In this document: positions 2,643 to 60,174 of the stretch, in pieces
How the letters are laid out: the number at the start of each line of letters is the position of its first letter
Numbering within the stretch: the stretch's first letter is position 1
Assembly: GCA_015179045.1 (NCBI GenBank)
Contig: WHUZ01000058.1
Coordinates: 124,001-188,000, forward strand
DNA from: Kalaharituber pfeilii
Lineage: Eukaryota > Ascomycota > Pezizomycetes > Pezizales > Pezizaceae
Length of the DNA: 64,000 bases
Direction: 5' to 3'
Translations under genes and position numbers: made by a program
The notes under the pieces: model-generated
Told to the model about the DNA's origin: nothing
The model's input: the letters and a program-made list of their open reading frames with translations, nothing else
Database searches by the model: none

Positions 2643-2708
2643 GTGTTAATTTACCTTATCATAGCGGATAGCGGTAAGCGGGGTTACGTGGTATTTTAAA
2701 AAAAAAAG
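2643..2708 (+). mobile_element. Tail-B micro-retroposon, divergent
   Basis: Target duplication GGCATATCTGCAT at 2630-2642 and 2709-2721. The body includes CGGTAAGCGGGGTTACGTG and A(n). It has about 14 extra bases upstream of the usual hairpin start. Confidence 0.75.
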
Positions 2709-2721
2709 GGCATATCTGCAT

Positions 2722-4150
2722 AAACATTGCAGATCTTCTAGGGTCGCATGCAGCGACGACCCAAACTAATAAGGCGAGGTTACAACTCAAAATTCACATG
2801 GGGCTAGGCGCAGGCTGAACTAGATGTGCTGATCATGGGTGTCTGCCTCACATTTGTACGCACAAGCACGCAGAACCACATCATACAGACCACCAGTCTA
2901 TGCCATATAGTAAGGATTTCGGCTACTCTAGAAAAGTATGCCGATGTCTTGTAAGAACTCTAGGAATCAAACTAAAGGGGTAAGATAGTTGCAAGGTCTT
3001 CAACGAATCAAAAGGTCGGACTAATGATAATATCCTCTAGTTACTTACGCCATGCATGTCCCTGTCATAGGCCCGTAACCTGTACGTGGAATTACGTGAT
3101 TATCCAGAAAAAAAGAAAAAAAAAGTATGCAATGCCACGTATATCATACTTCATAGCGAGGGTACAGACCATGTTTCACAAGAATACCGCATTTCACAGA
3201 ACTGCGAGCAAGAATTCTTTCACTGCTCCAATTCTCACCCATCCATGAATATCAACAACATCTACCAAATCTGGCATCATTAGCCATATCGATTGTCAAG
3301 TATCATTCTTTAGAGACTTCAGGTCATTCACTAGTACCAGCTGTCCTTGTTGGGCGAATGGAACTTCGTACCATAAAATCAGTAGGCAGAGGACTATACG
3401 AATACGATAAAAACAATAAGCTATAGGTTGCTGCATATCGCCGTAAAGCTATTCACGAAGGGAGGAGATAGTATATCGTTGAGTGTATTGAGCGAGAGGT
3501 TACGAGAGATACGTACCTATAAACATGATTGTGGACATACAAAACAGTGGTGTAACACAAACTAATACAAGCACTGGGAAACAACAAGCATGAAATGAAA
3601 TACATATGTGTAATTGCAACACGGGGGCAAGGTATGTGTTTACCAACAAACATCAATTCTCGCATCGTTTATTCATATGATGGAACTACTTTCCAGTAAC
3701 AGTCATAGTCCCAGGTTTGTGGCGGGCTAGCTGGCTTCGCCCAGTTCCCAACAAATTAATTCCTGTTCATTCCCAGTGCTAGGTCCGAAGAACCAGATAA
3801 TTGCAGAAGTCGGGAATGTTTTCAAGCTGCACATATCTGTACGAGTGCAAGGGAAAAGAAAGTGAAAAATAAGCTCACTAGCATTCTCAAGTCCAGGATT
3901 CGGGTATCGCTACCAATGGAGGGTCTCATGAAGGTAATGAATTGGCTACATAACCCCACCATTCCAGTCGAGGGCTTGCTTTTTCGAATCCGGATGTCTT
4001 CCTTTTGTAGTGTGCACAAGTTCACAGTAGAAGGTTCATATGCATATCAGGTGCCAATAAACCATGGGGAACGTGCACGCATCATGAAACTGCTCTAACA
4101 TTGGGCCAATTAAGAATTTGCCTAGCATTGTTTGCACTCCGATTGATTTG
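2722..4150. other. No gene or repeat recognised
   Basis: This stretch holds only short open frames without recognisable domains. No hairpin tail, LTR end or MITE end was found. An A-rich run near 3108-3125 is not preceded by tail A or B. Confidence 0.35.
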
Positions 4151-4154
4151 CTGT

Positions 4155-4560
4155 AATAGAATTCTTCCAGATACACCACGACCGAGCTGGTCTTTTTGCC
4201 TTCTTCCAGCAGCGGTCTTTCTTCTCAGCCACCTTATCCCAACTGTCTTGCCTAGCCTACTGTTCCCGGACTCCAACCATTTCTGGACTTTCCCCAAATC
4301 TTTTCTCAGGGCTATTGCATGTACTACGACGCCGTATGTCTGTGTGGTGGCGCCAGTGTGTGGTGGAGGGGCGGAGGGCTTGTCGGTCTTGGGTCTTGGT
4401 CCTGGGGTAAGGTCCGGTGTGCATCTTTGTCTTTGGAGGTCTGGTGTCGGTGTCGGTGTCGGGGTTGGGGTCTTCGTTGAGGTGGTGGTGGCGACGGGGG
4501 TGTTAGCTGTGGGTGTCGCCGCAAGTGCCTGCCTGGTTGAAGGCCGCGCACGAGGTCTGC
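4155..4560 (-). pseudogene. LINE-type ORF1 fragment (type A)
   Basis: The minus strand encodes a Pro/Thr-rich stretch (about 4330-4560), then VVVHAIALRKDLGKVQKWL and GIRWLRRK, the signature of the gag-like ORF1 also found at 22729-23535. The frame is then lost before the SSVVVYL motif. There is no 3' tail hairpin, so this is an internal relic. Confidence 0.65.
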
Positions 4561-4569
4561 TGCATACAG

Positions 4570-5440
4570 GTGCGCCGGATCAGTGACGTGTGGGAACCGC
4601 CCGAAGTCATGCTTCTATCGATAGCATCTGCACTTGAGTGCAATGTGCTTGACTTGACTTTGATCTTGCTGCAATCAATTTCCATTGGAAATGACGCCTC
4701 CATTTCACAGAGGTCTTCTATTGGTGTCAATCAGTGTACAGGCGAACCTTATGCTTTTTCCTGTGTCAGGTTTCATATCCTATCGAGAATTTAAACCAAG
4801 TCGGGTTAGGACCGCTGATTTGCTGTCCACTGAAAAGTAATTAAGTTCGCAGTATGCATAGTCACTAGCGCCATGGTGGATGTCATGTCCTCAGCCCTCC
4901 CTACGCGGCACGCGATTAATGATACAGTATAATAAAAAAAACAAAAAAACTCAGCCCTTCTATGCATGCATATGCATGCCGATCTATATCCCTGTCCAGC
5001 TACGCAGGAATTGGTTCAGAGGGACCCCCTGTAAGGTGAGCGGGGGCGGTGATCACAGTGCTATTCGCACTCATACATTTGGATACACACTACGGCACAG
5101 TATCATTGCCATTACTGGATTTCCTCGCTGAAAGTAATTCCAGAGATTGCTGAGAAGTGAAAGATGCTTAGGAGTATTACTGAGATGACTCCCATCCTTT
5201 TAGCAAGCGCATCTTGCTTGATTGCTTCGATCGGACTCTTCCTTATAGTGTTAGTAGTGCCTTATACAGTATAGCTTTCGGTAGGCTTAGCTGAACCAGC
5301 ATTTTTGGTTCATTAAAGAAAATGGTCTCATAACTGCCTGGTGTCTCATGAACGAACTTCTGCGGTATGCAGCTCTGATGTAAGATGTGTTTGCGCACGT
5401 CCTACCAACATGCCTTTACAGAATGTGTCCTAGAGCCTCA
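4570..5440. other. No gene recognised
   Basis: I see no coherent coding sequence here. Short open frames lack domains and no repeat ends were recognised. Confidence 0.35.
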
Positions 5441-5456
5441 GTTATCAGACGTTCAT

Positions 5457-5709
5457 TTTTTTTTTTTTTTTTTTTTTTACATCACGTAACCCCGCTTGCA
5501 GCGCCAAGCCATGGGAGGGTCCCTGGGCAAGCCCTCAAAGCCCGGAGACAGGCTTAACAAAGAAAGTTCTATATAAGTTCTATATACATCCCCGTTCCAC
5601 CCCCTTCTAAAGCCTGATTCCAGAAACCTCCGGACGGTTCTTCTGGTTTCTGCATCAGGGAAGCTCCCCTATATCTCACCACCACCCCCCCCCCCTCCCC
5701 TCCTCCACA
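5457..5709 (-). mobile_element. 5'-truncated LINE B copy with tail B, 253 bp
   Basis: Target duplication TATCAGACGTTCAT at 5443-5456 and 5710-5723. Read on the minus strand, a likely ORF2 C-terminus (TRRTVRRFLESG) is followed by a 3' UTR with AGAACTTTCTTTGTTAAGCC, the tail-B hairpin and poly-A. It matches the element ending at 26181, which runs in the opposite orientation. Confidence 0.8.
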
Positions 5710-7899: not shown

Positions 7900-7954
7900 A
7901 ATTTTTTTTTTATATCGTTACTCGCATGCCGCCCTGTAGGCTATGGCGGGGGGG
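7900..7954 (-). mobile_element. Tail-A micro-retroposon
   Basis: Target duplication GGAAGCACA at 7891-7899 and 7955-7963. T-run, then the complement of the tail-A hairpin, ending GGCGGGGGG rather than GGCGAG. It lies about 160 bp downstream of the membrane protein gene. Confidence 0.85.
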
Positions 7955-8121
7955 GGAAGCACAGAGATGACTGGGAGAACCGAGTAGTAACTTTGCACGT
8001 TGTTTTCTGCCATTCAAGTTATCTGTAACTCTTGTTGCCTGTTTTCGTTTACTTTTGATCAGATAACGCGTCTCATCGGGAAACCGCTTTAAGGGTCTTT
8101 TGGCTTTAATTCGGCCAATGT

Positions 8122-8190
8122 TTTTTTTTTTTTTTTTTTTTTCACGTGACCCCGCTTGTAGCTGTTCGCCATGGCAGGGCAGTTCTTTTT
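8122..8190 (-). mobile_element. Tail-B micro-retroposon
   Basis: Target duplication TTTAATTCGGCCAATGT at 8105-8121 and 8191-8207. T-run, then CACGTGACCCCGCTTG and CGCCATGGCAGGG. About 10 additional bases (CAGTTCTTTT) lie beyond the usual hairpin start. Confidence 0.85.
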
Positions 8191-8297
8191 TTTAATTCGG
8201 CCAATGTGAATGTAGCGCCGTAGGTCTTATTTGTAATCGAGGGTTTCTTAGAGTCACCAGGGTATTTTTATACATATTGTTTTTCATATCATTACTC

Positions 8298-9422
8298 TTT
8301 TTTTTTTTTTTTTTTTTTTATATCATTACTCGCGTGCCGCCCTGGGGGCTATGGCGAGATTAGTTACATGAGATTAGATACATATGAAGGTAGAAGAAAA
8401 GGAATAAGAAAAGATCCTGTGTGTCTCCTATGCCCCTGCCCACTCCAAGATGTCTCTAAGTGGGTCTGTGTCCTTGCTCTTCGGAGGAGTGACCAAGTCT
8501 TGCATGCCTCCTGGCCACTTTCGTTTCCATGTCCTGCACCTAGTGAGCACATGTTCAGTAGTCTCCTCCTCCTCCCCACACCATCGACATTCTGGGCTGT
8601 CTGCTTTCCCGATTTCGTACTGCCATTTCCGTAGTAACTTGCCGCCCAGTATTCCTGCTAGTGTGGCTATGTGTCGACTTCCAAGTCTTGTCAAGGGACG
8701 GTAGCTGAGCCCTAGCCGGTTTCTCTCTGTGGCGGGCTGATGTCTCGAGGTTTGTCGTATCCCATCTTCTGTTATGGTTTCATCTTGGTAGGGGAGGCAT
8801 GTGCCTATTTTCGCAGCTGTGTCTGCCTCGGTGTTCCCTTTGACTCCTATATGGGACTTGACCCACATCACTGCAACGTCCCAGTCACCTCGGTCTGTTC
8901 TCGCTTTCCAGGCGTCTCTAACCAGTTTTGCCGGTCCTTTGTGGGTGGGCTCTCCCTGGGCGATCTTTAGGAGCTTGGATATCGATACCTTAGAGTCTGT
9001 TGTGATCAGGAGTTCCCCAGCTTGATTGCGTAATGCTTCGCTCATGGCAATGAGTTCTGCATCATTGACAGTAGTCTGTTCCCCTAGGTATGTGGAAGTA
9101 GAGGTGTCTTTTGCGTAGGTGCCTAGGCCTGTCTTGTAATCTATCCTGCTCCCATCAGTGTAGACGGAGTTCCACCCCTCGTCCTCGGCATTGGCTATGG
9201 CATTCTCGAACTCGAGCTTGTCTGCGTCCGCAGGTAGTGCTGGTAGGATGGCTAGTGGTAGGGGGTTGTTGTGTGAGAGAGACCCCCGTAGGTACCTGCA
9301 CTCATTATCCCTGTTTTGGATTATCTCATCGTGGAACCGTAGGGCCCTGGCTTCTACCCTCTGGCGTTCTCCTTCTAGGAATGTTTGGGCTGATTCTAGG
9401 TTGGCTATTCCTTCGACTACGT
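8298..9422 (-). mobile_element. 5'-truncated LINE A copy (ORF2 3' end and tail A)
   Basis: Target duplication ATATCATTACTC at 8286-8297 and 9423-9434. Poly-T at the left, then the tail-A hairpin (to 8359), then the ORF2 C-terminus on the minus strand. The duplicated target is itself part of an older tail-A hairpin, whose remainder lies at 9435-9454, so this LINE copy landed inside a micro-element. Confidence 0.85.
8428..9422 (-). pseudogene. LINE ORF2 C-terminal fragment (RNase H and zinc knuckle)
   Basis: About 330 codons remain open. RNase H catalytic acids are visible in order: YTDGS, NDAELIAMSEAL, TTDSK and NTEADTAAK, so the active site looks complete. The C-terminus has the CCHC-type knuckle CRWCG...EHVLTRC, followed by LRDILEWAGA and a stop. 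The reverse transcriptase and endonuclease are missing through 5' truncation. The domain order is that of Tad1-clade LINEs, and this is the best preserved ORF2 piece in the window. Confidence 0.85.
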
Positions 9423-9454
9423 ATATCATTACTCGTATGCCGCCCTGTGGGCTT
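9423..9454 (-). mobile_element. Split remnant of an older tail-A element
   Basis: ATATCATTACTCGTATGCC and CGCCCTGTGGGCT are the distal part of a tail-A hairpin. The LINE copy at 8298-9422 split it, and a shortened T-run lies left of 8286. Confidence 0.65.
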
Positions 9455-10865: not shown

Positions 10866-10939
10866 TCTGAGCTTTAGGGTTGCAATATTGGAGGAGCTCT
10901 AGAAATGATGCCTTTTCTGCTAGTTTGATTGGTGAATTT

Positions 10940-10987
<48 letters not shown>

Positions 10988-11371
10988 CATTACTCGCATG
11001 CCGCCTGTGAGGCTATGGCGAGGTGGTGAATTTGTTGAGATAACAAAGCGGCAAACGAGTTCATGATACTGTGTTGCAGAAAAGCCCTCTAGTTTAGCTC
11101 GCTTTGTTGGAACCATCATGTCAAATGATATCCGTCACTTCAATTCTGTAGCGTTGCTAGTGGATGCCACAAGTTCTGAAAGGTGAGTATTCTCTAGTCT
11201 GGTTGCACCAACCCTCCGACCGTAAGTATTCTCCTCAGTTGTCACTTCCGAAAATGGTGAAGTAACATGGATGTGGTTGTTGTACAGCTTTTGACTTGCC
11301 AAGTCTTGGAACAATGCATACATAAAATTTCGTGCACATTGTCTAATATTTTTCGCCGCAAAATCATACAT
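10866..11371 (-). pseudogene. hAT transposase N-terminal remnant
   Basis: Minus-strand frames read FSATQYHELVCRFVISTNSP and, beyond the micro-insertion at 10941-11023, IKLAEKASFLELLQYCNP. This resembles the hAT transposase segment before the catalytic core (a hydrophobic stretch ending in Pro, then an F..LL motif). An upstream 78-codon frame at 11135-11371 may be more of the same protein. The catalytic DDE region is absent. Confidence 0.5.
10941..11023 (-). mobile_element. Tail-A micro-retroposon inside the hAT transposase remnant
   Basis: Target duplication TGGTGAATTTG at 10930-10940 and 11024-11034. The T-run is unusually long (about 42). The hairpin ends at its base, GGCGAGG. Confidence 0.9.
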
Positions 11372-11944: not shown

Positions 11945-12300
11945 CAGCGAGCCCTCGTATAAGTTGCCTCACTCCTTCCTCTTGCGCAGGGCAGCGCACC
12001 CGGCTGCATCAGGCACTTTCCAAGACGGTCTTGGCAGCGCGCTTGACTCTCGCCATTTTTTTTTTTTTATCACGTGACTCCGCTTGTAGCTGTTCGCCAT
12101 GGCAGGGCTGACTCTCGCCATGCGGGGTACCCAATGGGCCTGTTTCGGAAGTGCCCCTTTCAGAACTCCGCCCGACCATCACTCTGTGGGCCCCTTGGCC
12201 CCTTCTCCATCCTCTTCGCCCTCCTCTTCCATCTCCTCCACACCCATCCCGCCCACCTCGCCCACCCCAACGCGTCACCACACACCCCATCAAGCTCCGT
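11945..12300 (+). promoter_or_regulatory. Conserved upstream block of coiled-coil gene copy 1
   Basis: The sequence from GCGAGCCCTCGTATAAG through a C/T-rich tract to CATCAAGCTCCG recurs in the same place upstream of copy 3 (32440-32730, minus), in shortened form upstream of copy 4 (48125-48300) and alone at 32895-33190. Conservation of non-coding sequence upstream of every copy suggests a promoter and 5' UTR duplicated along with the gene. Confidence 0.6.
12057..12108 (-). mobile_element. Tail-B micro-retroposon in the upstream block
   Basis: Target duplication TGACTCTCGCCAT at 12044-12056 and 12109-12121. T-run, then CACGTGACTCCGCTTG and CGCCATGGCAGGGC. It is absent from the equivalent place in copy 3. 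Confidence 0.9.
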
Positions 12301-12357
12301 TTTATCCCCATATCCCTCAGGATGGCACGCGATCAATGATAGATAAAAAAAAAAAAA
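12301..12357 (+). mobile_element. Variant tail-A micro-retroposon
   Basis: Target duplication AAGCTCCGT at 12292-12300 and 12358-12366. The body has diverged (CCCTCAGGATGGCACGCGAT, then CAATGATAGAT and A(n)) but keeps the tail-A layout. It sits about 50 bp before the start codon of copy 1. Confidence 0.75.
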
Positions 12358-12409
12358 AAGCTCCGTCTACGCCACCACACACCACTTCACCACGAACAAT
12401 ACATTACTC

Positions 12410-13199: not shown

Positions 13200-13256
13200 C
13201 TGCCCTTCAGTTAGTTGCTAACGTGTTGCTCATATCCAGGGTTAGGTGAACTTGGG

Positions 13257-13316
13257 TCCCTGCCATGGCGAACAGCCGCAAACGGGGTTACGTGAAAAAA
13301 AAGAAAAAAAAAAAAG
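13257..13316 (+). mobile_element. Tail-B micro-retroposon
   Basis: Target duplication AGGTGAACTTGGG at 13244-13256 and 13317-13329. Body CCCTGCCATGGCGAACAG, GGGGTTACGTGA and A(n) with one G. It lies just after a likely splice acceptor of the coiled-coil gene unit. Confidence 0.9.
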
Positions 13317-13329: not shown

Positions 13330-13900
13330 AATCTTAATATCAGTTGAGCATTTCAATTACTTGGGCGTCACGTGTGTGCAGGGTGACGTCGGTTGCCCAC
13401 GTTCGTCGTTCTTCATTCCCGTGTCAAACATCAGCTCTCCCATGTCCATCCCTCCCGCTCCTTACATCTACCAACATCTACGACCCACATCTTTCTTCTG
13501 CACTCATGCTTGCTTCCCTCCCTTCGCGCCCCCACTCTAGTCCTCGAATGCAAACCACCTGCTCGACCTATGCTATTTCTAAATCAAGTGTGCGTCGCAG
13601 TATGGAAGCCCACATCCGGGGACCTTCATGGTAGGTGTTTTTTTTTTTTTTTTTTTATATATCAATACTCGCATGCCGCCCTTCGGGCTATGGCGAGATG
13701 GTAGGTGTTGAATGTAGATGGATAGGCCGCGGGGGAGGAAGAGTAGGGGTGGAGACGAGTTAGCGTAGTAAGATCCAGCGGGAAACACGTGGATATGAGA
13801 GTCTAGGTGACTTTTTGTTCTCAATTTGTCGCCGCCTCTTTGACCCCGTCCATCTCTTGTACGCTGGCGACCGCCTCACTTCGGCGTTTTCCAGTGTCCC
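13330..13900 (+). repeat. Conserved 3' block of the coiled-coil gene unit
   Basis: This stretch, starting near GTGTGTGCAGGGTGACGTCG, matches 50325-50830 downstream of copy 4 and a shorter minus-strand block at 31370-31500 beside copy 3. It is therefore part of the duplicated unit. No common long reading frame was recognised, so it may be a 3' exon, a UTR or a neighbouring relic. Confidence 0.5.
13640..13697 (-). mobile_element. Tail-A micro-retroposon
   Basis: Perfect target duplication ATGGTAGGTGTT at 13628-13639 and 13698-13709. Intact hairpin with GCCC and GGGC arms; the 5' end is exactly at the stem base. The paralogous stretch near 50610 lacks the insertion. Confidence 0.95.
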
Positions 13901-15028: not shown

Positions 15029-15086
15029 ATTTTTTTTTTTTTTTTTAATATCAATACTCGCTTGCCGCCCGATGGGCTATGGCGAG
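15029..15086 (-). mobile_element. Tail-A micro-retroposon
   Basis: Perfect target duplication TAAGGAATTATT at 15017-15028 and 15087-15098. A hairpin with four-base GCCC/GGGC pairing and the 5' end at GGCGAG make this one of the cleanest copies. Confidence 0.95.
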
Positions 15087-15344
15087 TAAGGAATTATTGT
15101 TGGCTATATCCATCCGGTGGGATGCTTCAGATTCCATAGACACCGTTACCCCGAATGCCCAGCTTGGTGACATTTCCTGCCTTGAGATGCAAAACCCCGT
15201 TCTGGAATGTTTCAGAGGAAAAGTGGTGCAGCAGAACTGTAATGATAAAGACGACCGGAGAGAAATGGAAGGGAGTTGATTAGATATTGGGTATCGCATA
15301 TGACATTCCTGGATGGGGACATTCATTACAAGATTATCAGGTTA

Positions 15345-16058: not shown

Positions 16059-16236
16059 ACCCTTCAGTATATTCTGCAATGCTAGACGATTTTCAAACTG
16101 CTGGATAAGCTGTGCAAGCTTTACAGGCTTGAAAGTAAGCAAAATCATTCTGCTTCTTCGCTTGAAAGATTATGATGGGTATGAAATTGCTCTTGTTCAA
16201 ATAAGTTTTTCCTACTATAGGCCGGTAGCTTGTATG

Positions 16237-16517
16237 TAGTGAGCGGCACGAGCCGAGCCAGCTCGAGCTCAAACGAGCCAAGATCATGCTTGTGTTTTTC
16301 TTGACAGCTCGCTCAAATGCTTAGCCAGTGCAAACTGTAAATACCTAATATAGTAATAATTAGAGACTTGGAGCTCATTCTGACCTACCAACAACTTCGA
16401 AATGCACAATTTAGCTGATAGTAGTGAGAAAGATGAAAATTTAGCTTAGTTTAGTTTAGTTTGTCAATATTATGTATATAATCAATCCAGGCTCGAGCTA
16501 GCTCGTGCCGCTCACTA
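16237..16517. mobile_element. hAT-type MITE, 281 bp
   Basis: TAGTGAGCGGCACGAGCCG at the left, CCGCTCACTA at the right, and a perfect 8-bp duplication CTTGTATG (16229-16236 and 16518-16525). The interior contains TTAGTTTAGTTTAGTTTG. Orientation is opposite to the copy at 1451. Confidence 0.92.
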
Positions 16518-16877
16518 CTTGTATGTAGCGTATGTGGCTTAAAAAAAAAAAAAAAAAAAAAAAGATTATTTGACTAGAATATGGGAAGTTGATAATCCTG
16601 CCGAGCACCGTTTGGACATGGGACAACCCGGCCGTTTGCAGTGATTATGGTTTAGCAGTTTGGGACATTGATGCTGTAGGTTCGGTTGATGTAGTTAATA
16701 GCCATCTAGGATGAATTAAAGTGATTGGAATTGTTGCCTGCAATTCAAACAAAGGTCCAAGCTTGGTGTGACATGGGAGCTCGTATTGGTAAGCAATACT
16801 ACTCGTTACCAGAATTTAGTGCTGTAATAGCATGCGTTGGTTGAAGAGCTGTGGACATCTGCTGCTACATTGCTATT

Positions 16878-17393
16878 TTTTTTTTATATCAGTGATCGCA
16901 TGCCGCCCTATGGGCTATGGCGATTTAGTTACATAAGGAAATGAAGATGCCCACGGCTCTCTCTAGTGATGTGGGTGATAAAAACCGGCAAAGGAAAGTA
17001 CAGTGTGAGACCCACAGCTCTCGCTAGTAGTGTGGGTAGTGCCAAAGTCAGCATGGTTGGTCTTCCTACTTCTGTCCTCTACCCCAATCATAATGTTCCA
17101 CTCTTAACCATCGTCTTCCGAGATGGAAGCGATACGTCGGCCCCCGAAATCCGGGGAAGGGGAAGTCGATCCGATACAGGGACCGATGGAGATGCTGGGG
17201 GAGGACGGAACGAGCAACTGAGCTACCGAAGATTGTTTCCTTCTTTTCTTTCTATTCTCATTGTCGTTGTCGTTAGTCATTTACCCTCATGTAGTTAGGT
17301 AACACCTCGCCATAGCCTCACAGGCGGCCAGCGAGTAATGATATAAAAAAAAAAAAAACAATCGTCTCCCGAGCCTCACTTTCCCAACCTCGG
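16878..17393 (-). mobile_element. 5'-truncated LINE A copy, interrupted
   Basis: Target duplication TACATTGCTATT at 16866-16877 and 17394-17405. Poly-T and a tail-A hairpin at the left. A second LINE copy of opposite orientation (17123-17360) is nested inside. Confidence 0.8.
17123..17360 (+). mobile_element. Nested 5'-truncated LINE A copy
   Basis: Target duplication ATCGTCTYCCGAG at 17110-17122 and 17361-17373 (one transition). It contains an ORF2 C-terminus reading EMLGEDGTSN and a stop, then a 3' UTR, the tail-A hairpin and poly-A. The same C-terminus (EMLGEDGTGD) occurs at 29214-29373. Confidence 0.8.
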
Positions 17394-17417
17394 TACATTG
17401 CTATTGACCCAGGCCCC

Positions 17418-17460
17418 CGCCCTGACATGGCGAACAGCTGCAAGCGGGATTACATGAAAA

Positions 17461-17492
<32 letters not shown>
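17418..17492 (+). mobile_element. Tail-B micro-retroposon
   Basis: Perfect target duplication GACCCAGGCCCC at 17406-17417 and 17493-17504. Body CGCCCTGACATGGCGAAC and CAAGCGGGATTACATGA with a poly-A of more than 30. It lies 12 bp beyond the right target duplication of the previous LINE. Confidence 0.92.
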
Positions 17493-17951: not shown

Positions 17952-18308
17952 AACGCGGGCCTGGGAAAGACCGTGGGAATTAGGTGGTTAAGAAAGAAGT
18001 CCGTGTTGTTGGAAGAGGGAAAGAAGACGAGTTCAGTGGTGGTATACTTAGAAGACAACACTGACATCGACAGGGTAAGGCTCGGAGGGAAATGGTTGAG
18101 GATTAGCCCTTACGAACAGGACAGGGGACGGAAGTGACGCACCTGTACAAGGGATCACCACCCGCACCATGCATTAGTACCGCGGGAAACACATGTAGTT
18201 AGCCTTTTCTTTTTTCTTTCATTAATACAGAAACCTCGCCATAGCCCGCTGGGCGGCCTGCGAGTATTGATATAAAAAAAAAAAAAGAAAAAAAAAAAAA
18301 AAAAAAAA
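17952..18308 (+). mobile_element. 5'-truncated ORF1-type element with tail A
   Basis: Target duplication GATGGTGCTGGG at 17940-17951 and 18309-18320. The open frame reads GIRWLRKKSVLLEEGKKTSS, then VVVYLED and VRLGGKWLRISPYE, with a stop at 18135-18137. The 3' UTR, tail-A hairpin and poly-A follow directly, with no reverse transcriptase between ORF1 and the tail. Confidence 0.85.
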
Positions 18309-19249: not shown

Positions 19250-19260
19250 GATATCACAGT

Positions 19261-19322
19261 CCCTCGCCATAGCCCTTTGGGCGGCATGCGAGTATTGATA
19301 AAAAAAAAAAAAAAAAAAAAAA
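19261..19322 (+). mobile_element. Tail-A micro-retroposon
   Basis: Perfect target duplication GATATCACAGT at 19250-19260 and 19323-19333. Nearly the whole element is hairpin plus poly-A; it starts CCCTCGCCATAG. Confidence 0.95.
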
Positions 19323-19917: not shown

Positions 19918-20035
19918 TTTAAGTGGAGTCCCGACGCTCCATGAAGATGACGTGGGCGTTATAGACAATTACGAGTCCACTAACAACCCGTTGCATTGCA
20001 CAGGTTGCTAAGTGGCTCGATTACCCTACGTAGAC

Positions 20036-20084
20036 GCCCTGCAGCTGCATGCGGGGTTACGTGATATCAAAAAAAAGAAAAAAA
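20036..20084 (+). mobile_element. Tail-B micro-retroposon, internally shortened
   Basis: Target duplication ACCCTACKTAGAC at 20023-20035 and 20085-20097 (one mismatch). Body GCCCTGCAGCTGCATGCG and GGGTTACGTGA; the CATGGCGAA segment is missing. Confidence 0.85.
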
Positions 20085-20179
20085 ACCCTACTTAGACAGG
20101 GGAAAGGAGCTCCGCATATCGGCAAATGCATATGCCAAGCCATTCTGTCATGAGACAATGCAGCTGAGAAAGCGGTGCT

Positions 20180-20240
20180 TTTTTTTTTTTTTTTTTTTTT
20201 TATATCATTGATCGCTTGCCGCCCTGTGGGCTATGGCGAT
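20180..20240 (-). mobile_element. Tail-A micro-retroposon with paralogous empty site
   Basis: Target duplication AAAGCGGNGCT at 20169-20179 and 20241-20251. Copy B of the duplication reads GAGAAAGCGGAGCTTGAA near 27183, which is the uninterrupted site. Confidence 0.93.
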
Positions 20241-20331
20241 AAAGCGGAGCTTGAAGGCTGAAAGCCAGTGACTTGACGGCCACAGAGAACGTGTCCTCTC
20301 CTTATTCTCGACATTGTCCCACGGAAGAAAT

Positions 20332-21941: not shown

Positions 21942-21979
21942 CGAAGAGATAGACTTGATGAGGCTCACTGAGGAAGCTT

Positions 21980-22035
21980 TTTTTTTTTTTTTTTTTTTTT
22001 TATATCATTAATCGCGTGCCGCCCTGTGGGCTATG
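21980..22035 (-). mobile_element. Tail-A micro-retroposon, slightly 5'-shortened, with empty site
   Basis: Perfect target duplication ACTGAGGAAGCTT at 21967-21979 and 22036-22048. The 5' end is CATAGCCC, lacking the outer CTCGC arm. Copy B has the empty site CAGTGAGGAAGCTTTTG near 28886. Confidence 0.93.
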
Positions 22036-22135
22036 ACTGAGGAAGCTTCTGATTGGAACTAGCACAAGGAATTGGCGGTCTATTGCGGGGAAGGGCGAGC
22101 ATAGGCTCAATTGCCTGCTTCTACTGTATGTGGTT

Positions 22136-23961: not shown

Positions 23962-24310
23962 TTCCAGTGTCCTTGCTGAAGATACTATTTTAATTGCAAT
24001 ATTTCCTGTTGTATCGACGGTCTACTGTAGTGCTGGCACCGCACACGGAAAAACTGAGGAATTGGATTGTTTGTTGGTCCTTGTTTGTATCCTTGTTTTT
24101 GGGAGATTGTCAGACGCGGAGACAGGTTTAAGTAGCAGGTCCCAAGTACAGTTCCTATAACTTTTATCAAACAATCCAACTTAAAAGATCTCTGTCACTC
24201 AAAACCGTGACTCCATTTATATTACAGTACCATCGCTGAGAGAGGGTACAAATTCTGCCAGCTGCATAATGGTTCCATACCGCATGATTGATTTCTACAA
24301 CGGAGATAAA

Positions 24311-24374
24311 TACCCCCCTCGCCATAGCCCATAGGGCGGCATGCGAGTAATGAAAAAAAAAAAAAAAAAAAAAA
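24311..24374 (+). mobile_element. Tail-A micro-retroposon
   Basis: Perfect target duplication ACGGAGATAAA at 24300-24310 and 24375-24385. Six extra bases (TACCCC) precede CCTCGCCATAGCCC. Confidence 0.93.
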
Positions 24375-24490
24375 ACGGAGATAAAGATATAGAAGACGGA
24401 AAATAAGGAGCACTATGCTTTTCTTCCCCTTCCGTTCCACCACCCCAACCTATCAGCCTTGTTGGAAACCATGATTAGCTAAGGTATACG

Positions 24491-24853
24491 TAGTGAGCGG
24501 CTCGAGCTAGCTCTTTTTTTTTTTTTTTTTTTTAATTCACGTGACCCCGCTTGCAGCTTTTCGCCATGGCAGGGCGCTCGAGCTAGCTCGAGCCTAGATT
24601 GATTATATATATAATATTGACAAACTAAACTAAACTAAGCCAAATTTTCATCTTTCTCACTACTATCAGCTAAATTGAGCATTTCGAAGTTGTTGGTAGG
24701 TCAGAATGAGCTCCAAGTCTCTAATTATTACTATATTAGGTATTTACAGTTTATGAAACCTTGCACTGGCTAAGCATTTTAGTGAGCTGGCAAGAAAAAC
24801 ACTAGCATGATCTTGGCTCGTTTGAGCTCGAGCTGGCTCGGCTCGTGCCGCTC
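24491..24853. mobile_element. hAT-type MITE with nested micro-retroposon
   Basis: Perfect 8-bp duplication GGTATACG at 24483-24490 and 24854-24861. The left end is TAGTGAGCGG; the right end has lost its last ACTA yet still abuts the duplication. It is inserted within the LTR-like repeat that starts at 24470. Confidence 0.9.
24514..24575 (-). mobile_element. Tail-B micro-retroposon inside the MITE terminal repeat
   Basis: Perfect target duplication GCTCGAGCTAGCTC at 24500-24513 and 24576-24589. T-run, then CACGTGACCCCGCTTGC and CGCCATGGCAGGGC. Order of events: LTR, then MITE, then micro-element. Confidence 0.93.
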
Positions 24854-32368: not shown

Positions 32369-32438
32369 TTTTTTTTTTTTTTTTTTTTTTTTAATATCAT
32401 TACTCGCGTGCCGCCTCCATAGACTATGGCGAGTGGGA
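32369..32438 (-). mobile_element. Tail-A micro-retroposon
   Basis: Target duplication GGAGCTTG at 32361-32368 and 32439-32446. Hairpin variant with CTCCATAGAC between the arms; ends GGCGAG plus TGG. It separates copy 3 from its upstream block. Confidence 0.82.
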
Positions 32439-32439
32439 G

Positions 32440-32730
32440 GAGCTTGATGAGGTGTAGGGTGTATGGTGACGAGTTGGGGTGGGTAAGGTGGGCGAGGTGG
32501 GCGGGGTGGGCGGGGTGGGCGTGGAGGAGGAGACAGAGGAGACGAAGAGGATGGAGAAGGGGCCAAGGGGCCCACAGAGTGATGGTCGGGCTCAGTTTCT
32601 GAAAGGGGCACTTCCGAAACAGGCCCATTGCGTACCCCGCATGGCGAGAGTCGAGCGCGCTGCCAAGACCGTCTTGACGAGTGCCGTGCCGGGTGCGCTG
32701 CGTGAGAGGAAGGAGTGAGGATCGATGTCA
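32440..32730 (-). promoter_or_regulatory. Conserved upstream block of coiled-coil gene copy 3
   Basis: The reverse complement matches 11960-12290 (CCAATGGGCCTGTTTC or a variant, CCATCACTCTGTGGGCC, then the CCCACC-rich tract). It is in the same position relative to exon 1 as in copy 1. Confidence 0.6.
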
Positions 32731-35855: not shown

Positions 35856-36010
35856 TGTTGTTGAGGTGGGTACAAGCGCGAAATGACAGAAGAAAGGAAA
35901 TCCAAGAGAATGTGAGACTTAAAGGAATGAGTGGTAACGAAGAGCGACGAGGCGAAAAGGAGAGGTGCGAAGAAGTGGAAGGAATGAGAGGTGCGACTTG
36001 ATGCTTTGTT

Positions 36011-36035: not shown

Positions 36036-36598
36036 TGACTGAACGTCGACCCTGATTCCGGATTCGCACTTAGAATAAGGAGGGCTTCGTCACGTAGGAA
36101 AAAACAAGAAAGAGCTTCTGAAGGAATAAAGAAGATCTGTACTGTTGGGTCCGTACCGTTGGGTCCAATAAGTCTGATTGATTAAAGAGATGCAGAATCA
36201 AACAGGATTATATACATAATGAGCATTGCATGACGTGACTGCAGAACCATGACTAGACAGGCAGGTGTAACATATCAGGCAGGTGCGGAAGTAACGGAAT
36301 GCATGGCTTGCAACTAAGCGCTGTGGCGTGAAGTTGGTACTGTGGCGTTATTGCATGATTCAGACACATAATAGCAACGGAGTGTAGATCATGTGTATGT
36401 TAAATGAAAGAACAGAACAGCAACCAATAAACAGACGAAACAGCAGTTAGAGGGGATTATCTATTAGTAACAGTAACAGAAAGAAACGTATCCATTAGTA
36501 ACAGTAATAGAAAAAACATATCTATTAGTAACAGCAACATACGGGTAGCGGATGTTGATAGACAGCTCAACACGGGTGGCGGATGTCATGTTTCGACA
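36036..36598 (-). repeat. Copia LTR (563 bp)
   Basis: On the minus strand it starts TGTCGAAACATGACATCC and ends CGTTCAGTCA, next to the primer-binding site. It matches the solo LTR at 51821-52372 closely; one difference is a 14-base GTTGGGTCC duplication near 36150. Confidence 0.9.
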
Positions 36599-36640: not shown

Positions 36641-37250
36641 ATGTCTTCTAATAACACAGTCTCGGCTGTTCTTCTCCTAATTTGTGTAGTTGCTGCAGTG
36701 TGAGTCTGGCCCAGGTGAGCATGCTCCCACGACGAGATAATCTGCTGAATGCTATGCCAGTTCCGTTTCTGCAGTTCCTCTTGCTAGTCCTAGTGCTGCT
36801 GCAGCGGCAGCAGTAGATGTCGTCAAGTCCATAGGCGGGAACATTGCCAGCGCCGGGCTCTGGATAGCAACAGTGTTCCTGGCAGCACATTTCGTTGCCG
36901 GCAAGATTAGATTTTGGCAGTGGGAGGTAAAGGAGGTGGAGCGGATTAAACAGGCAAAGGATGAGGAGGCAGAGAGGATTAAGAAGGCTAAAGATGAGGA
37001 GGCCGAGCGGATTAAGAAGGCCAAAGATGAGGAGGCGGAGCGCCTCAAGAAGGCGAAGGATGAGGACATTGCAAGGGACATGAGGGCAAAGGATGAGGAA
37101 ATTGCGAGGAACATGAAGTCCAAGCATGCACCAGAAGCGGTCAAGACCCAGACACAGATTCGGATTGCGGTAAGGAACCGGCAGGCGGACAGGAAGAAAG
37201 GACTGGCCGCGAAGTCGGCGGCGACTAAAGTAGCAGGAAACCCCGCCAAA
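36641..37250 (+). CDS. Membrane-anchored coiled-coil gene, copy 2 (3' end replaced)
   Basis: Exon 1 36641-36699 (59 nt: MSSNNTVSAVLLLICVVAAV), intron 36700-36760 (61 nt, GTGAGT...CCAG), exon 2 from 36761. The spliced frame is open: SVSAVPLASPSAAAAAAVD, KSIGGNIASAGLWIATVFLA (second hydrophobic segment), then repeats of EEAERIKKAKD. The protein would have a signal-like N-terminus, a membrane segment and a highly charged helical tail. From about 37240 the sequence becomes a LINE-type ORF1 fragment; staying in frame gives a stop near 37374. The original C-terminus is lost, so whether it works is unclear. Confidence 0.65.
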
Positions 37251-37942: not shown

Positions 37943-37999
37943 CTTTTTTTTTTTTTTTTTTTATCATTACTCTCGTGCCGCCCTGGGGGCTATGGCGAG
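37943..37999 (-). mobile_element. Tail-A micro-retroposon in satellite
   Basis: Perfect target duplication TATTCTCGTA at 37933-37942 and 38000-38009. Ends exactly at GGCGAG. Confidence 0.93.
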
Positions 38000-38077
38000 T
38001 ATTCTCGTATTGTCGATTTGGCCCTATGGTACATTTCAGATTCAGCTCACGTTCATACATCTCACGATGTTGAAAGG

Positions 38078-39499: not shown

Positions 39500-40060
39500 A
39501 ATTGACTATCTTCACGCCATTGGGCATATTGGGTACATGTATGAGATATACAATTATAGAACATATTGAGCATGTTAAGTATGTTGAGCACGTTGAGAGC
39601 TCATATGAGATGGAGGGTATATTGGGCACATTGAGTATATTGAGTACGCGTATATGAGATGTACGATACATTAGGCACATTGAGCATTTGAGCACGTTAA
39701 GTGTGCTCATGGGATGTAGGCACATTGAGCATATTAAGCATGTTGAGTGTACGCACATGAGATATAGGATACATTGGGCACATTGAGCATGTCAAGTATA
39801 TTGAGCACGCATATAAAATATAGAACATATTGGGCATATTGAGTATCTTGAGCATGTTGAGCATGCACATGAAATATAGAACATATTGGGCACATTGAGT
39901 ATCTTGAGCATGCTGAATACACAAATGAAAACCTCGCCATAGCCTATAGGGCAGTATGCAAGTAATGATATTTAAAAAAAAAAAAAAAAAACACATATGA
40001 AATGTAGAACATATTGGGCATATTGCTCATGTTCAACACATTGAGTATGCTGCGATGCCG
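39500..40060. repeat. Degenerate minisatellite of ATTGAGCA-type units
   Basis: Words such as ACATATTGGGCA, ATTGAGCATGTTGAGCA and ATATGAAATATAGAACA recur about every 60-70 bp. No coding function is apparent. Confidence 0.65.
39931..39990 (+). mobile_element. Tail-A micro-retroposon in minisatellite
   Basis: Target duplication ACACAWATGAAA at 39919-39930 and 39991-40002. The hairpin carries several changes (GGGCAGTATGCAAG) but keeps its outline. The tandem context makes the duplication slightly less certain. Confidence 0.8.
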
Positions 40061-48536: not shown

Positions 48537-49927
48537 ATGCATTCAAACGGAACTGTCATCTCCCAACTGAGTCGCGCTCTCGCTATCCTGACAATCTCGA
48601 TCGCAGTGTAAGTCCCCCCTGGATCCCTCTACAAGGGATATAAGGTGACCATTACGCTAGTTGGGTATGGACGACGCCAGTGGGCACCGACGATGATGTT
48701 GCAGCCCCAGCCATCAGTGCTGTCCAAGATCTGGGCGGAGCCGGTATCGCCAGCATTGCTAAAAATGGACTCTTGATTGTGACAGCTTTAATGGCAGTGC
48801 ATTTCATTGCGGGACTGGCTAAGTCTAGGAATTTGGAAAAAGATGAAGTAAAACGGGTGAAGAAGGCGAAGGATGAGGATGTGGCGAGGAGAAAGAAGGC
48901 AGAGGATGACGAGGCGGCAAGGAGAAAAAAGGCGGAGGATGAAGAGGCGGCGAGGAGAAAAAAGGCGGGGGCTGACGAGGCAGCGAGGAGAAAGAGGGCA
49001 GAGGATGATGAGGCGGCGAGGAGAAAGAGGGCGGAGGATGATGAGGCGGCGAGGAGAAAGAGGGCAGAGGATGATGAGGCGGCGAGGAGAAAGAGGGCGG
49101 AGGATGATGAGGCGGCGAGGAGAAAGAAGGCGGAGCATGAAGAGGCGGCGAGGAGAAAGAAGGCGGAGGATGACGAGGTGGCGAGGAGAAAGAGGGTGGA
49201 GAATGACGAGGCGGTGAGGAGAAAGAAGGTGGAGAATGACGAGGCGGCGAGGAGAAAGAAGGCAGAGGATAACGAGGCAGCGAGGAGAAAGAAGGCGGAT
49301 GATGAGGTGGGGAGGAGAAAGAAGGTGGAGAATGACGAGGCGGTGAGGAGGAAGAAGGCGGATGATGACGTGGCGAGGAGAAAGAAGGCGGATGATGACG
49401 TGGCGAGGAGCAAGAAGGCGGAGGATGACGAGGCGGCGAGGAGAAAGAAGGCGGAGGATGAGGTGGCGCGGAGAAGGAAGGCAGAGGATGACGAGGCGGC
49501 GAGGAGAAAGAGGGCGGAGGATGACGAGGCGGCAAAGAGAAAGAAGGCAGAGGATGAGGTGGCGCGGAGAAAGAAGGCAGAGGATGACGAGGTGGCGAGG
49601 AGAAAGAAGGCGGAGGATGACGAGGCTGAGCGGCAAATGAAAGCCTTGCTTGCAGCAGCAGCAGCAAAGAGGCGAGCGGACCTTGTAGAGGGGGCCAGGA
49701 GGAGACAGGCAGAGAGGCAGAGAGCAGTATGGGCGAAGTGGGCCGCGAGGGGCACAGGAGCAGGGAAGCGGCGAGCGGAGCCAGCGGTGGAGGCGTTGGC
49801 AAGGACGGCGAAAGCGGAGCGAGAGGAAGAGATCAAGGGGCTATTGGCGGCGCTGGCGACGGTCAGAGCGCAGCTGGACATCATGAGGAAGAAGAATACA
49901 CCCCCGTTGGAAACCACCACCAGCTAA
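48537..49927 (+). CDS. Membrane-anchored coiled-coil protein, copy 4 (445 aa)
   Basis: Exon 1 48537-48607 (MHSNGTVISQLSRALAILTI), intron 48608-48660 (53 nt), exon 2 48661-49927; the joined frame is open. A signal-like segment is followed by GTDDDVAAPAISAVQDLGG and a membrane segment GLLIVTALMAVHFIAGL, then about 23 tandem units of AARRKKAEDDE type (mostly 12 residues, about 48870-49630). These are almost entirely Lys, Arg, Glu, Asp and Ala, predicting a long charged helix. An Ala/Arg-rich region follows. The last residues (LETTTS and stop) lie in an LTR-like repeat, so the native end is replaced. It is the only copy of the family with a long uninterrupted frame. Function unknown; a structural tether is only a guess. 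Confidence 0.75.
48875..49630 (+). repeat. Coding minisatellite, 33/36-bp units
   Basis: Units of the form GAGGCGGCGAGGAGAAAG plus AAGGCGGAGGATGAC repeat about 23 times, with single-codon deletions (DDE to DE) that always keep the frame. Adjacent units at 49000-49130 are nearly identical, indicating recent expansion. Confidence 0.85.
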
Positions 49928-51820: not shown

Positions 51821-52372
51821 TGACTGAACGTCCACCCTGGAATTCCGGCTTCGGACGCAGAATGAGGAAGGCTTCGTCACGTAGGAAAAAACAAGAGAGA
51901 GCTTCTCTGAAGGAATAAAGAAGATCTGTACCGTTGGGTCCAATAAGTCTGATTGATTAAAGAGATGCAGAACAAACAGGATTATATACATAATGAGCAT
52001 TGCATGACGTGACTGCAGAACCATGACTAGACAGGCAGGTGTAACATATCAGGCAGGTGCGGAAGTAACGGAATGCATGGCTTGCAACTAAGCGCTGTGG
52101 CGTGAAGTTGGTACTGTGGCGTTATTGCATGATTCAGACACATAATAGCAACGTAGTGTAGATCATGTGTATGTTAAATGAAAGAACAGAACAGCAACCA
52201 ATAAACAGACGAAACAGCAGTCAGAGGGAACTATCTATTAGTAACAGTAACAGGAAGAAACATGTCCATTAGTAACAGTAACAGAAAAACATATCTATTA
52301 GTAACAGCAACATACGGGTAGCGGATGTTGATAGATAGCTCGAGCACGGGTGGCGGATGTCATGTTTCGACA
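51821..52372 (-). mobile_element. Solo copia LTR (552 bp)
   Basis: Matches the LTR at 36036-36598 from TGACTGAACG to TTTCGACA. The flanks TTTAT and GGTGG do not match, so the expected 5-bp duplication is absent. The right end lies inside the reading frame of the next gene. Confidence 0.85.
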
Positions 52373-54560: not shown

Positions 54561-54569
54561 AGGCAAGTT

Positions 54570-55640: not shown

Positions 55641-55645
55641 TGAGT

Positions 55646-55979: not shown

Positions 55980-56189
55980 ATCAAGTACAGAGGAGATGAA
56001 GAAAAATGAGGACTTTGCAAATAATGATAAAACGAAATCAGAAGCCCATAACACCTCATCTTGCTACCCACCTAGTGGGGGCCCTAATGGCATCCCACCC
56101 CCTGGACACCTTCTCCTCCATACATCGCATCTGGACCACTTATGGTCCGTTGTTTTGCCTCCCAACGTGCCCATCAGGCTGTCCAACCT

Positions 56190-56248
56190 CGCCATAGCCC
56201 ATAGGGCGGCCATGCGAGTAATGATTTAAAAAAAAAAAAAAAAAAAGA
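56190..56248 (+). mobile_element. Tail-A micro-retroposon
   Basis: Target duplication GCTGTCCARCCT at 56178-56189 and 56249-56260 (one transition). Starts CGCCATAGCCC immediately after the duplication. Confidence 0.88.
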
Positions 56249-56261
56249 GCTGTCCAGCCTA

Positions 56262-56745: not shown

Positions 56746-56762
56746 AATTGAATCTTTAAAAA

Positions 56763-56826
56763 GCCCTGCCATGGCGAAAAGCTGCATGCGGGGTCACGTG
56801 AATTAAAAAAAAAAAAAAAAAAAAAA
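56763..56826 (+). mobile_element. Tail-B micro-retroposon
   Basis: Target duplication GAATCYTTAAAAA at 56750-56762 and 56827-56839. Body GCCCTGCCATGGCGAAAAGC, TGCATGCGGGGTCACGTGA and A(n). Confidence 0.9.
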
Positions 56827-56839
56827 GAATCCTTAAAAA

Positions 56840-57590: not shown

Positions 57591-57627
<37 letters not shown>

Positions 57628-58960: not shown

Positions 58961-58978
58961 AAGGTCTCGCGGTAGCCT

Positions 58979-59036
58979 ACCTCGCCGTAGCCTACCAGGC
59001 GGCACGCGAGTAATGAAATAAAAAAAAAAAAAAATT
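58979..59036 (+). mobile_element. Tail-A micro-retroposon
   Basis: Target duplication TCGCGGTAGCCT at 58967-58978 and 59037-59048. Starts ACCTCGCCGTAGCC. Confidence 0.9.
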
Positions 59037-59379
59037 TCGCGGTAGCCTCAACGACTCCTGCACAACATGCGCTCCAGTAGTAGGATCAATCTCAATAAGA
59101 TGATCAAACGTCATACTGCCCTTTATGGCTAGATGAAAATCTTACCGCCGTTCTCAAACCAACCACGGCCGTTGTGAAGGTACTTGATATTGTCAACACC
59201 AATAATACTCTCGTTCCCCAAAATATAATCACCCGCTTGTGTCCCACTCGCGGCAGAACCTGAACCTGTGCCTGCAGTATCCGACCCACCTGTTGCACCA
59301 CTTCCATCCAAACTGCCAAATTCACCAGCGGTAGATCCTCCAAATGCCATTCTAATACTAGACAGAGGAAAAAATGTTG

Positions 59380-59697
59380 TTCTACCCAGTCCATTGATTT
59401 GCTGATGTCCTTTACCTTCAGGGGTCTGAGTAGTTCTTTCTCGCCTCCAGGCCATCAGTTCGGTGGTGGTGTACCTGGATGAGGTATCGGGAAGTGACAG
59501 GGTGAGACTGGGAGGAAGATGGCTCCGAGCAGAGCAGTACGACTGGGACAGAGGCAGGAAGTGAAGGACCCATTCTGTACTGAACTTCACCCGCATAATT
59601 TACTAGCACCGCGGGCACTACATGTATTTAGCCTTTAATTTCTTTTATTCTTTTACTAAACCCTCGCCATAGCCCATAGGGCGGCATGCAAGTATTG

Positions 59698-59728
<31 letters not shown>

Positions 59729-59870
59729 TCCGGGCTATCCAATCTTCCATACTTTGCACCTGCTCAGCAGGTGTGTGATGGTCTCCTCTTCCTCCACGCA
59801 CCACCTACATTCCGGTCTATCTGCTTTGCCCAGTTTGTATCTCCATTGTCTCAGTATGGCTATGAATAGC
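59380..59870 (-). pseudogene. LINE ORF2 C-terminal remnant, interrupted
   Basis: On the minus strand, KADRPECRWCVEEEETITHL with LSRCKVWKI (59850-59735) continues beyond an insertion as WPGGEKELLRPLKVKD (59450-59400). It aligns with CRWCGEEEETTEHVLTRC and WPGGMQDLVTPPKSKD of the LINE at 8428-9422. An ORF1-type element splits it. Confidence 0.65.
59457..59728 (+). mobile_element. 5'-truncated ORF1-type element with tail A, nested in LINE ORF2
   Basis: Probable target duplication TCCAGGCCATC (59446-59456) and TCCGGGCTATC (59729-59739), with two transitions. It carries SSVVVYLDEV and VRLGGRWLRAEQYDWDRGRK, a 3' UTR, a tail-A hairpin and poly-A. Continuity of the interrupted ORF2 on both sides supports the borders. 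Confidence 0.78.
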
Positions 59871-60121
59871 GAAGCATAAAAAAAAAAGCTAGTTTATGCC
59901 GAAAACTGCATAGCGCATCAACATGCATATATCCCCTGTCCAAACACTACTAATTTTTCTGTCTAGTATGGGAATACGTTAGCAACTAGGTGACATAAAT
60001 TAAAAACGGTCCAATGTCCAAAACCAAGCAATCACCTTGTATACCGTGCCAAAAGCAATCCGAGAGATGCTTGTTCTCAAGGGAAGACAGGTAAAAGCCT
60101 CCTATTTATGCGCCCTGAATT

Positions 60122-60174
60122 CGCCATAGCCCTTAGGGCGGCATGCGATTAATGAAATAAAAAAAAAAAAAAAA
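60122..60174 (+). mobile_element. Tail-A micro-retroposon
   Basis: Target duplication TGYGCCCTGAATT at 60109-60121 and 60175-60187. Starts CGCCATAGCCC; the outer arm's C and T are part of, or lost beside, the duplication. Confidence 0.92.

Follow-up and report, generated by a model that had tools for sequence, protein, structure and literature searches.

Short interspersed nuclear elements (SINEs) are known to borrow the tails of long interspersed nuclear elements (LINEs), and LINE copies which have lost their 5′ part are usually 100–1,000 bp long (PMC3747384). In Magnaporthe, strong hairpins are predicted beside the template-switch sites of a LINE (PMC2104539). Among the titles, abstract openings and passages retrieved by full-text searches of open PMC papers, a scope which does not include subscription journals, none describes insertions that comprise only the tail hairpin and start at a preferred 5′ point. 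Such insertions are present in a stretch of 64,000 nucleotides (nt) from the ascomycete Kalaharituber pfeilii (GenBank assembly GCA_015179045.1, contig WHUZ01000058.1, positions 124,001 to 188,000; the whole stretch is called the window in the following, and its coordinates are used throughout). They consist of a hairpin of 30–38 nt, of type A or type B, and a poly-A run, A(n), the insert comprising ~40 nt plus the A-run. The first-pass annotation of the window had regarded them as a swarm of micro-retroposons far shorter than ordinary SINEs. They are no stand-alone family: the hairpins are the 3′ tails, i.e., the last ~40 nt, of LINEs of the same genome (LINE-A and LINE-B′) with reverse transcriptase and RNase H, and the tiny elements are almost certainly target-primed insertions made by the genome's own LINEs which hold only the LINE 3′ tail, hairpin plus poly-A.

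Hairpin-only insertions and their parent LINEs

A search of the window for A-runs preceded by hairpin A or B with an alignment score of at least 17 yielded 47 tails, lower-scoring ones, such as one ending near 51478, being excluded. Target site duplications (TSDs) were detected as ungapped matches between the flank 3′ of the A-run and the upstream sequence. A TSD scoring at least 8 within 60 nt was present for 24 of the 47 tails, in some cases with a mismatch, which upholds the earlier proposal of retroposition with poly-A and target duplications. The annotation had claimed at least 26 such insertions, 16 with hairpin A and 10 with hairpin B; the 16 of type A were recovered, while type B amounted to 8 and the total to 24. 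Measured from the outer base of the hairpin, 16 of the 24 copies start at offsets −3 to +3 (the one at 39933, within a repeat array, being less certain), five at +4 to +11, and three inside the hairpin (−9, −9 and −6). The other 23 tails show no duplication within 60 nt, and LINE-like sequence lies upstream of many, not all, of them.

The analysis was extended to a 264 kb sample made up of the window, the two loci flanking it and 18 others chosen by place (L011–L028), each locus being 10 kb long. It contained 113 tails with complete flanks. Tails whose downstream flank reaches beyond the locus end were dropped, and L004 and L005, which overlap with L012, were omitted from one of the TSD searches. 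A TSD score of at least 8 within 60 nt was reached by 54 of the 113 tails, with scores mostly between 9 and 17, and by only 7 of 339 trials in which downstream flanks were swapped in from other copies. Assigning the best TSD to each tail placed 52 near the hairpin, 16 at 60–500 nt and 3, doubtfully, far away, leaving 42 unassigned; matches more than 500 nt away scored no better than the swapped flanks. At least two of the 16 at 60–500 nt were wrongly assigned, namely the hairpin-base copies at 37999 and 39933, the former (37944–37999) having been misplaced among the longer inserts through a longer chance match 408 nt away. For the tail at position 7238 of L024, a duplication at offset 0 was found in one search and missed by a stricter seed.

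Across the 78.0 Mb assembly (360 contigs), exact hairpin A occurs at 2333 places (1166 + 1167) and exact hairpin B at 1111 (553 + 558), counts which take in the tails of longer LINE copies; the reversed patterns gave 0 for both. Since 18 hairpin-base insertions were counted in the 180 kb that lie away from the window region (18 loci, placed at fixed positions of contigs which are mostly short), a rough extrapolation suggests several thousand hairpin-only insertions genome-wide, as an order of magnitude only.

The link to coding LINEs can be read directly in the window, where a hairpin A with A(n) at 8298–8358 (minus strand) forms the 3′ end of a truncated LINE-A copy. Adjoining it upstream is an open reading frame (ORF) at 8428–9453 (minus strand) which encodes the C-terminus of ORF2 with RNase H (Pfam RNase_H, E 5e-15; a zf-RVT match was below the cut-off) and is ~99% identical over residues 12–341 to LINE copies with frames of up to 1098 aa. 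Among these related copies, the LINE-A locus L114 encodes RVT_1 and RNase_H and is closed by hairpin A with A(n), and the tail of L115 is of the same kind. Hairpin B closes the LINE-B′ copies, of which L117 has Exo_endo_phos_2 together with RVT_1 in a single frame and RNase_H in a different one. With 3 mismatches and 6 gap positions over ~3.26 kb, two of three compared LINE-B′ copies must be recent, the third differing at about one base in ten. The domain set of endonuclease, reverse transcriptase and RNase H is consistent with the Tad1/I-like clade, to which these LINEs may belong.

Hairpin A seems to be kept as a structure, as two of its pairs covary in related sequences. In a set of 55 distinct A hairpins, 41 have C-G as their outer pair and 10 have A-T; at pair 13-17, C-G is found in 37, T-A in 12 and T-G in 5 (54 of 55).

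Longer 5′-truncated LINE copies coexist with the hairpin-only ones, and both appear to be the product of one endonuclease system, because A-run length and nick step are alike in the two classes. The median A-run is 22 in the 76 hairpin-base and in the 14 longer copies, although an A-run was required by the search itself and is therefore not an independent criterion. At the pyrimidine-purine (Y^R) nick step, Y stands at −1 in 69 and R at +1 in 68 of the 76 hairpin-base copies, and correspondingly in 12 and 10 of the small set of 14 longer ones. TSDs average 12.8 nt in hairpin-base and 14.3 nt in longer copies, means which are not strictly comparable as the detection thresholds were 9 and 11.

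The variable TSD length and the A-run at one end rule out miniature inverted-repeat transposable elements (MITEs) or other DNA transposons. SINEs are recognized by a head derived from RNA polymerase III (Pol III) transcripts with an internal promoter, which the hairpin-only inserts do not have. As had been noted before, an insert of hairpin plus A is too short to accommodate a Pol III promoter. Searches of the window with Rfam and ARAGORN returned no Rfam or tRNA match.

Start points of the copies and the nature of their template

The 5′ ends of the copies are strongly clustered. In the 264 kb sample, 34 of 49 TSD-resolved ends lying between −30 and +60 of the outer base fall in −3 to +3, where 3.8 are expected (binomial p ~7e-27), with 19 of 30 for type A and 15 of 19 for type B; when the window and the two loci beside it are left out, the figure is 18 of 24 (p ~8e-16). 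The earlier claim that almost all copies start at the outer base of the hairpin is thus correct as to the concentration there, while 15 of the 49 ends lie elsewhere, eight inside the hairpin (five in its 3′ half) and seven 4–14 nt upstream. As the 34 ends cluster in this way a smooth spread is excluded, and duplications exceed those of the swapped flanks; neither of the two patterns which the annotation had named as incompatible with its proposal is seen. That LINEs were merely truncated at random 5′ points, or that hairpins stand next to A-runs by chance, is hardly credible as an explanation: longer truncated copies do exist (the 16 with a TSD at 60–500 nt, at least two of them wrongly assigned), yet this reading is already contradicted by the clustering of ends, by the flank control and by the absence of the reversed pattern.

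The starts of type B are mostly sharp to the nucleotide. In a pool of 54 hairpin-base copies, drawn from unselected and, for the most part, pattern-selected loci, 28 start at offset 1, i.e., one nt before CCCTGCC, and 25 of these have a G there, which is also the base at −1 in LINE-B′. Another 12 start at offset 0 or −2, with the base or bases shared with the target, and 14 carry 2–3 extra nt. As 10 of these 14 read CG or TG where LINE-B′ has GG, the extra base looks mostly untemplated. Two copies (L074 and L085) begin further upstream, at −39 and −37, which is the 5′ base of the next LINE-B′ hairpin, AAGCCTGCCTCCGGGCTT; genome-wide, a LINE-B′ pattern reaching −37 occurs at 151 places and one reaching six bases further at 56. 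Besides the terminal hairpin, LINE-B′ would thus have a second preferred end at the 5′ base of its next stable hairpin.

The subfamilies seem to differ in their share of hairpin-only copies. Among 20 loci retrieved with the B pattern, 11 TTA(C/T)GTG copies comprised nine with LINE-B sequence upstream, two without assignment and none that was hairpin-only, whereas all eight TCA or TAA copies were hairpin-only (nine to zero vs. zero to eight, Fisher p 4e-5); the remaining copy (L031) was cut off. Genome-wide, GGGA precedes the hairpin at 231 places, of which the first 100 listed all read CTGCAAG, and of 468 TCACG places 82 of the 100 listed read CTACAAG. Out of 40 CTACAAG/TCACG copies, 30 were hairpin-base copies with a TSD, five had LINE-B′ sequence upstream, one started 20 nt upstream and four had no assignment. 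These 40 were picked down the list, passing over CTGCAAG places and skipping four CTACAAG places which had already been sampled; L082 yielded no entry, and eight more CTACAAG places were left out unexamined, one of which (C2:531923) is LINE-linked. The 15 hairpin-base B copies of the 264 kb sample were TTA-type in seven cases, TCA-type in six and neither in two, so other B-like subfamilies also yield hairpin-only copies. For hairpin A, 20 pattern-derived loci contained six hairpin-only copies and five longer inserts (31 to 154 nt), all with a TSD, and nine copies without assignment, most of which have LINE-like sequence upstream.

The excess of hairpin-only over LINE-linked CTACAAG/TCACG copies (30 vs. 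5 of 40), most of them sharing their start base, would fit a true micro-SINE, in which the hairpin is transcribed at one or a few source loci, under a promoter lying outside it, and a LINE protein mobilizes the transcript. This appears improbable, as LINE-B′ copies carry the same variant, likewise with G at −1, and as ends at the hairpin base are also seen in many A variants and in B variants of the TTA type. The inserts offer no space for an internal promoter, and no source locus is known, none having been searched for.

The annotation had proposed that reverse transcription stops at the 5′ side of the hairpin or that a short hairpin RNA is the template. Both mechanisms are live, and the data lean to the second. 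Because reverse transcriptase starts copying at the 3′ end of the RNA, an obstructing hairpin should produce ends on its own 3′ side. Such ends form a minority, represented by the eight inside the hairpin, five of which lie in its 3′ half. The main ends lie 5′ of the hairpin, and folding two LINE-A 3′ ends gave no separate stable hairpin just upstream of hairpin A; therefore, either the template ends there or the enzyme releases after copying its anchor.

The explanation we favor, and to which we would give an even chance, is that the tiny copies were templated by a short 3′ fragment of LINE mRNA ending at the 5′ base of the hairpin. It is preferred because of the mostly nucleotide-sharp start of type B, the untemplated bases and the second end of LINE-B′. 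The hairpin would serve as a tag for binding of the RNA by the LINE protein, and the poly-A as the priming site. The 5′ end of the template would be preset at the hairpin base, most simply by 5′-to-3′ decay of unshielded RNA, with hairpin and bound protein shielding the remainder. Reverse transcription would then run off the template end, sometimes adding an untemplated base, and the cDNA would be joined in the normal way.

Several points speak against such a decay fragment as template. Xrn1 is not normally halted by small hairpins, and the poly-A has usually gone by the time 5′ decay begins. The type-A ends, between −3 and +3, are less sharp than those of type B. Evidence for the second stop is limited to the two ends read (L074 and L085), and as the two LINE-B′ patterns are not nested, divergence may explain part of the difference between 151 and 56. 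For 25 longer inserts (19 of type A, some probably misassigned) no clear tie between 5′ ends and predicted hairpins was seen, judged by no formal statistic, so structure-defined template ends are not general. Of the nine tested pairs of hairpin A, the seven which do not covary hardly vary at all and say little about structure, and in one of the LINE-A folds the hairpin is enclosed by a weak AU-rich stem. In the exact-pattern sample, none of the 11 TTA-type copies, which carry the near-identical LINE-B hairpin, could be assigned as hairpin-only (two had no assignment), so a hairpin may not be enough by itself; yet, with seven of the 15 unselected hairpin-base B copies being TTA-type, the subfamily rule is loose.

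Abortive target-primed reverse transcription, for which there is a reasonable though lesser chance, would start from full-length RNA: a protein anchored at the hairpin would in many cases be released once the hairpin had been copied, as copying destroys the anchor, while the remaining events would run far. It would account for ends just past the hairpin, for the looser type-A ends and for the coexistence of much longer copies. In zebrafish L2 LINEs, ORF2 is known to bind a stem-loop (PMC4176376), and human L1 ORF2p has an anchoring stem-loop beside the poly-A (PMC10830416). However, abortive copying predicts some scatter beyond the hairpin, whereas most type-B ends are sharp to the nucleotide and accompanied by untemplated bases, and it leaves unexplained why two copies start at the second hairpin upstream. 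As for a template preset by decay, depletion of XRN1 lowers human L1 retrotransposition about threefold (PMC11014359), so that LINE mobility can depend on an enzyme of RNA decay, although the result is silent on fragments as templates.

A bolder reading, with a lesser though reasonable chance, is that the decay of LINE mRNA releases an RNA of ~60 nt, hairpin plus poly-A, which on its own is fully sufficient as a template for retrotransposition and which, by rough extrapolation, has produced thousands of insertions in this genome. These would then form a class of retroposons far below the usual SINE size, defined by RNA structure and free of a promoter.

Individual insertions and other repeats

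All five examples singled out by the annotation are genuine. Three carry hairpin A: the hairpin-only copies at 13638–13697 (minus strand; TSD AACACCTACCAT at 13698–13709) and 15030–15086 (minus; AATAATTCCTTA at 15087–15098), and that at 19263–19322 (plus; two extra nt, CC; GATATCACAGT at 19250–19260). The other two carry hairpin B, at 17420–17492 (plus; offset 2, CG; GACCCAGGCCCC at 17406–17417) and at 24514–24574 (minus; offset 1, G; TSD at 24576–24589), the latter within an inverted-repeat element of the GAGCGGCACGAG type.

Further copies of hairpin A with A(n) on the minus strand are located at 37944–37999 (offset 0; TACGAGAATA at 38000–38009), 10937–11022 (one extra nt; AACAAATTCACCA at 11024–11036) and, as a variant with an A-T outer pair, 20179–20240 (TSD with mismatch, 20241–20252). 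Those on the plus strand are found at 58981–59034 (two extra nt, AC; TCGCGGTAGCCT at 58967–58978), 12304–12359 (degenerate hairpin, offset 3; AAGCTCCGT at 12292–12300) and, each with a mismatch in the TSD, 56188–56246 (56178–56189), 60120–60174 (60108–60121) and the less certain one in the repeat array, 39933–39991 (39919–39930). Additional bases separate TSD and hairpin at 24318–24375 (plus; seven nt, TACCCCC; AACGGAGATAAA at 24299–24310), 32369–32433 (minus; five nt; CAAGCTCC at 32439–32446) and 7902–7950 (minus; a C run; TGTGCTTCC at 7955–7963). These bases are C-rich, reading TACCCCC (24318), TCCCA (32433) and CCCC (7902–7950), and are not clearly templated by the LINE. Two insertions begin inside hairpin A, one at 21978–22041 (minus; offset −6; AAGCTTCCTCAGT at 22036–22048) and one at 4890–4949 (plus; offset −9; CTCAGCCCT at 4890–4898).

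Hairpin B with A(n) at offset 1 is present at 13258–13315 (plus; TTACGTG type; AGGTGAACTTGGG at 13244–13256), 12056–12107 (minus; CTACAAG, GGAGTCACGTG; TSD ATGGCGAGAGTCA at 12109–12121) and 56764–56826 (plus; TSD with mismatch, 56750–56762). Eleven extra nt precede the CTACAAG/TCACG copy at 8121–8179 (minus; 17-nt TSD, 8191–8207) and the diverged copy at 2654–2707 (plus; GGCATATCTGCAT at 2630–2642), and an insertion at 20027–20085 (plus; TSD with mismatch, 20023–20035) begins inside hairpin B at offset −9. Two plus-strand tails with hairpin A serve as a contrast: the one at 18235–18308 belongs to a 5′-truncated LINE copy, its insert being ~283 nt longer (TSD GATGGTGCTGGG), and the one at 17306–17358 to a longer copy with ~183 nt of upstream sequence (TSD with mismatch).

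Several other repeats share the window. MITE-like elements of ~300 bp with inverted ends TAGTGAGCGGCACGAGC...GCTCGTGCCGCTCACTA were recognized by eye at ~1453–1747, at 16236–16520, from 24575 and near 38312, one of them hosting the hairpin-B copy at 24514–24574. At 60368–62127 there is an AT-rich element (GC 0.29 over 60001–62000) with 564-nt inverted arms that are 89% complementary and tandem 18-mers ACCGGGATATTGCGCACA at its end, possibly a DNA transposon or foldback element. Coding tandem repeats of 33 bp, which specify a KKAEDDEAARR-like coiled coil in two frames, occupy 48860–49626 and 36931–37116; a 31-bp repeat at 36458–36539 is found again at 52232–52312, and an 83-bp tandem repeat at 63029–63280 has three perfect copies. 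The frame at 33192–35918 (minus strand) is that of a Copia-type long terminal repeat (LTR) retrotransposon with gag and integrase domains.

Elsewhere, the loci L069–L071, on three contigs, hold Gypsy-type LTR elements which are almost identical to one another and retain long open frames, suggesting recent activity. They had been matched by the RVT_1 search as candidate LINE polymerase and were not used, their translated frames being those of Gypsy-type elements. Among the matches listed for contig G000:C1, exact A hairpins lie at 70–500 kb and again from 2.37 Mb, with none between; L011, at 1.0 Mb of this contig, contains no tail, whereas exact B hairpins are present at both 1.1 Mb and 1.7 Mb. 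Some parts of the genome may thus be rich and others poor in LINEs.

Implications and comparison with known systems

For pasting a copy into the genome, a LINE may require no more than a hairpin followed by poly-A. If the short-template reading is true, evolution has already defined a minimal RNA tag which these LINE enzymes accept, and such a tag would be of direct use for RNA-templated insertion and for understanding how ORF2 proteins select their RNA. If copying aborts instead, the copies form a fossil record, at near-nucleotide resolution, of an abortive step in target-primed reverse transcription. Under either reading, a good part of LINE activity can probably leave scars of ~60 bp, hairpin plus A-run, which could easily be missed by ordinary repeat annotation.

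The tail itself resembles those of stringent-type LINEs such as UnaL2 and ZfL2-1/ZfL2-2, which have a 3′ stem-loop with compensatory changes beside the priming tail (PMC4176376, PMC3747384). In the passages on these elements the stem-loops are described as essential and not as masses of stem-loop-only insertions, and for the elements studied here protein binding would have to be assumed by likeness. In being short and non-coding and in having a LINE-like 3′ end for mobilization, the insertions are similar to Mg-SINE, which goes with the LINE MGL in Magnaporthe (PMC2104539). Unlike SINEs with a LINE-derived tail, however, they have no head of the tRNA, 5S or 7SL type and no promoter, the whole insert being tail. 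With 5′-truncated, dead-on-arrival LINE copies they share target-primed reverse transcription, target duplications, poly-A and the loss of the 5′ part, but they measure ~40 nt and have a preferred 5′ end instead of scattered ones. The MINE chimeras of Magnaporthe, which arise by template switching of MGL, offer a further parallel in that a fungal LINE is involved, breakpoints lie near predicted hairpins and duplications span 10–20 bp (PMC2104539), although no second template is joined in the insertions described here. The mobility route, that of a LINE, is therefore a known one, whereas the sharp hairpin-flush ends of these insertions and their numbers are new.

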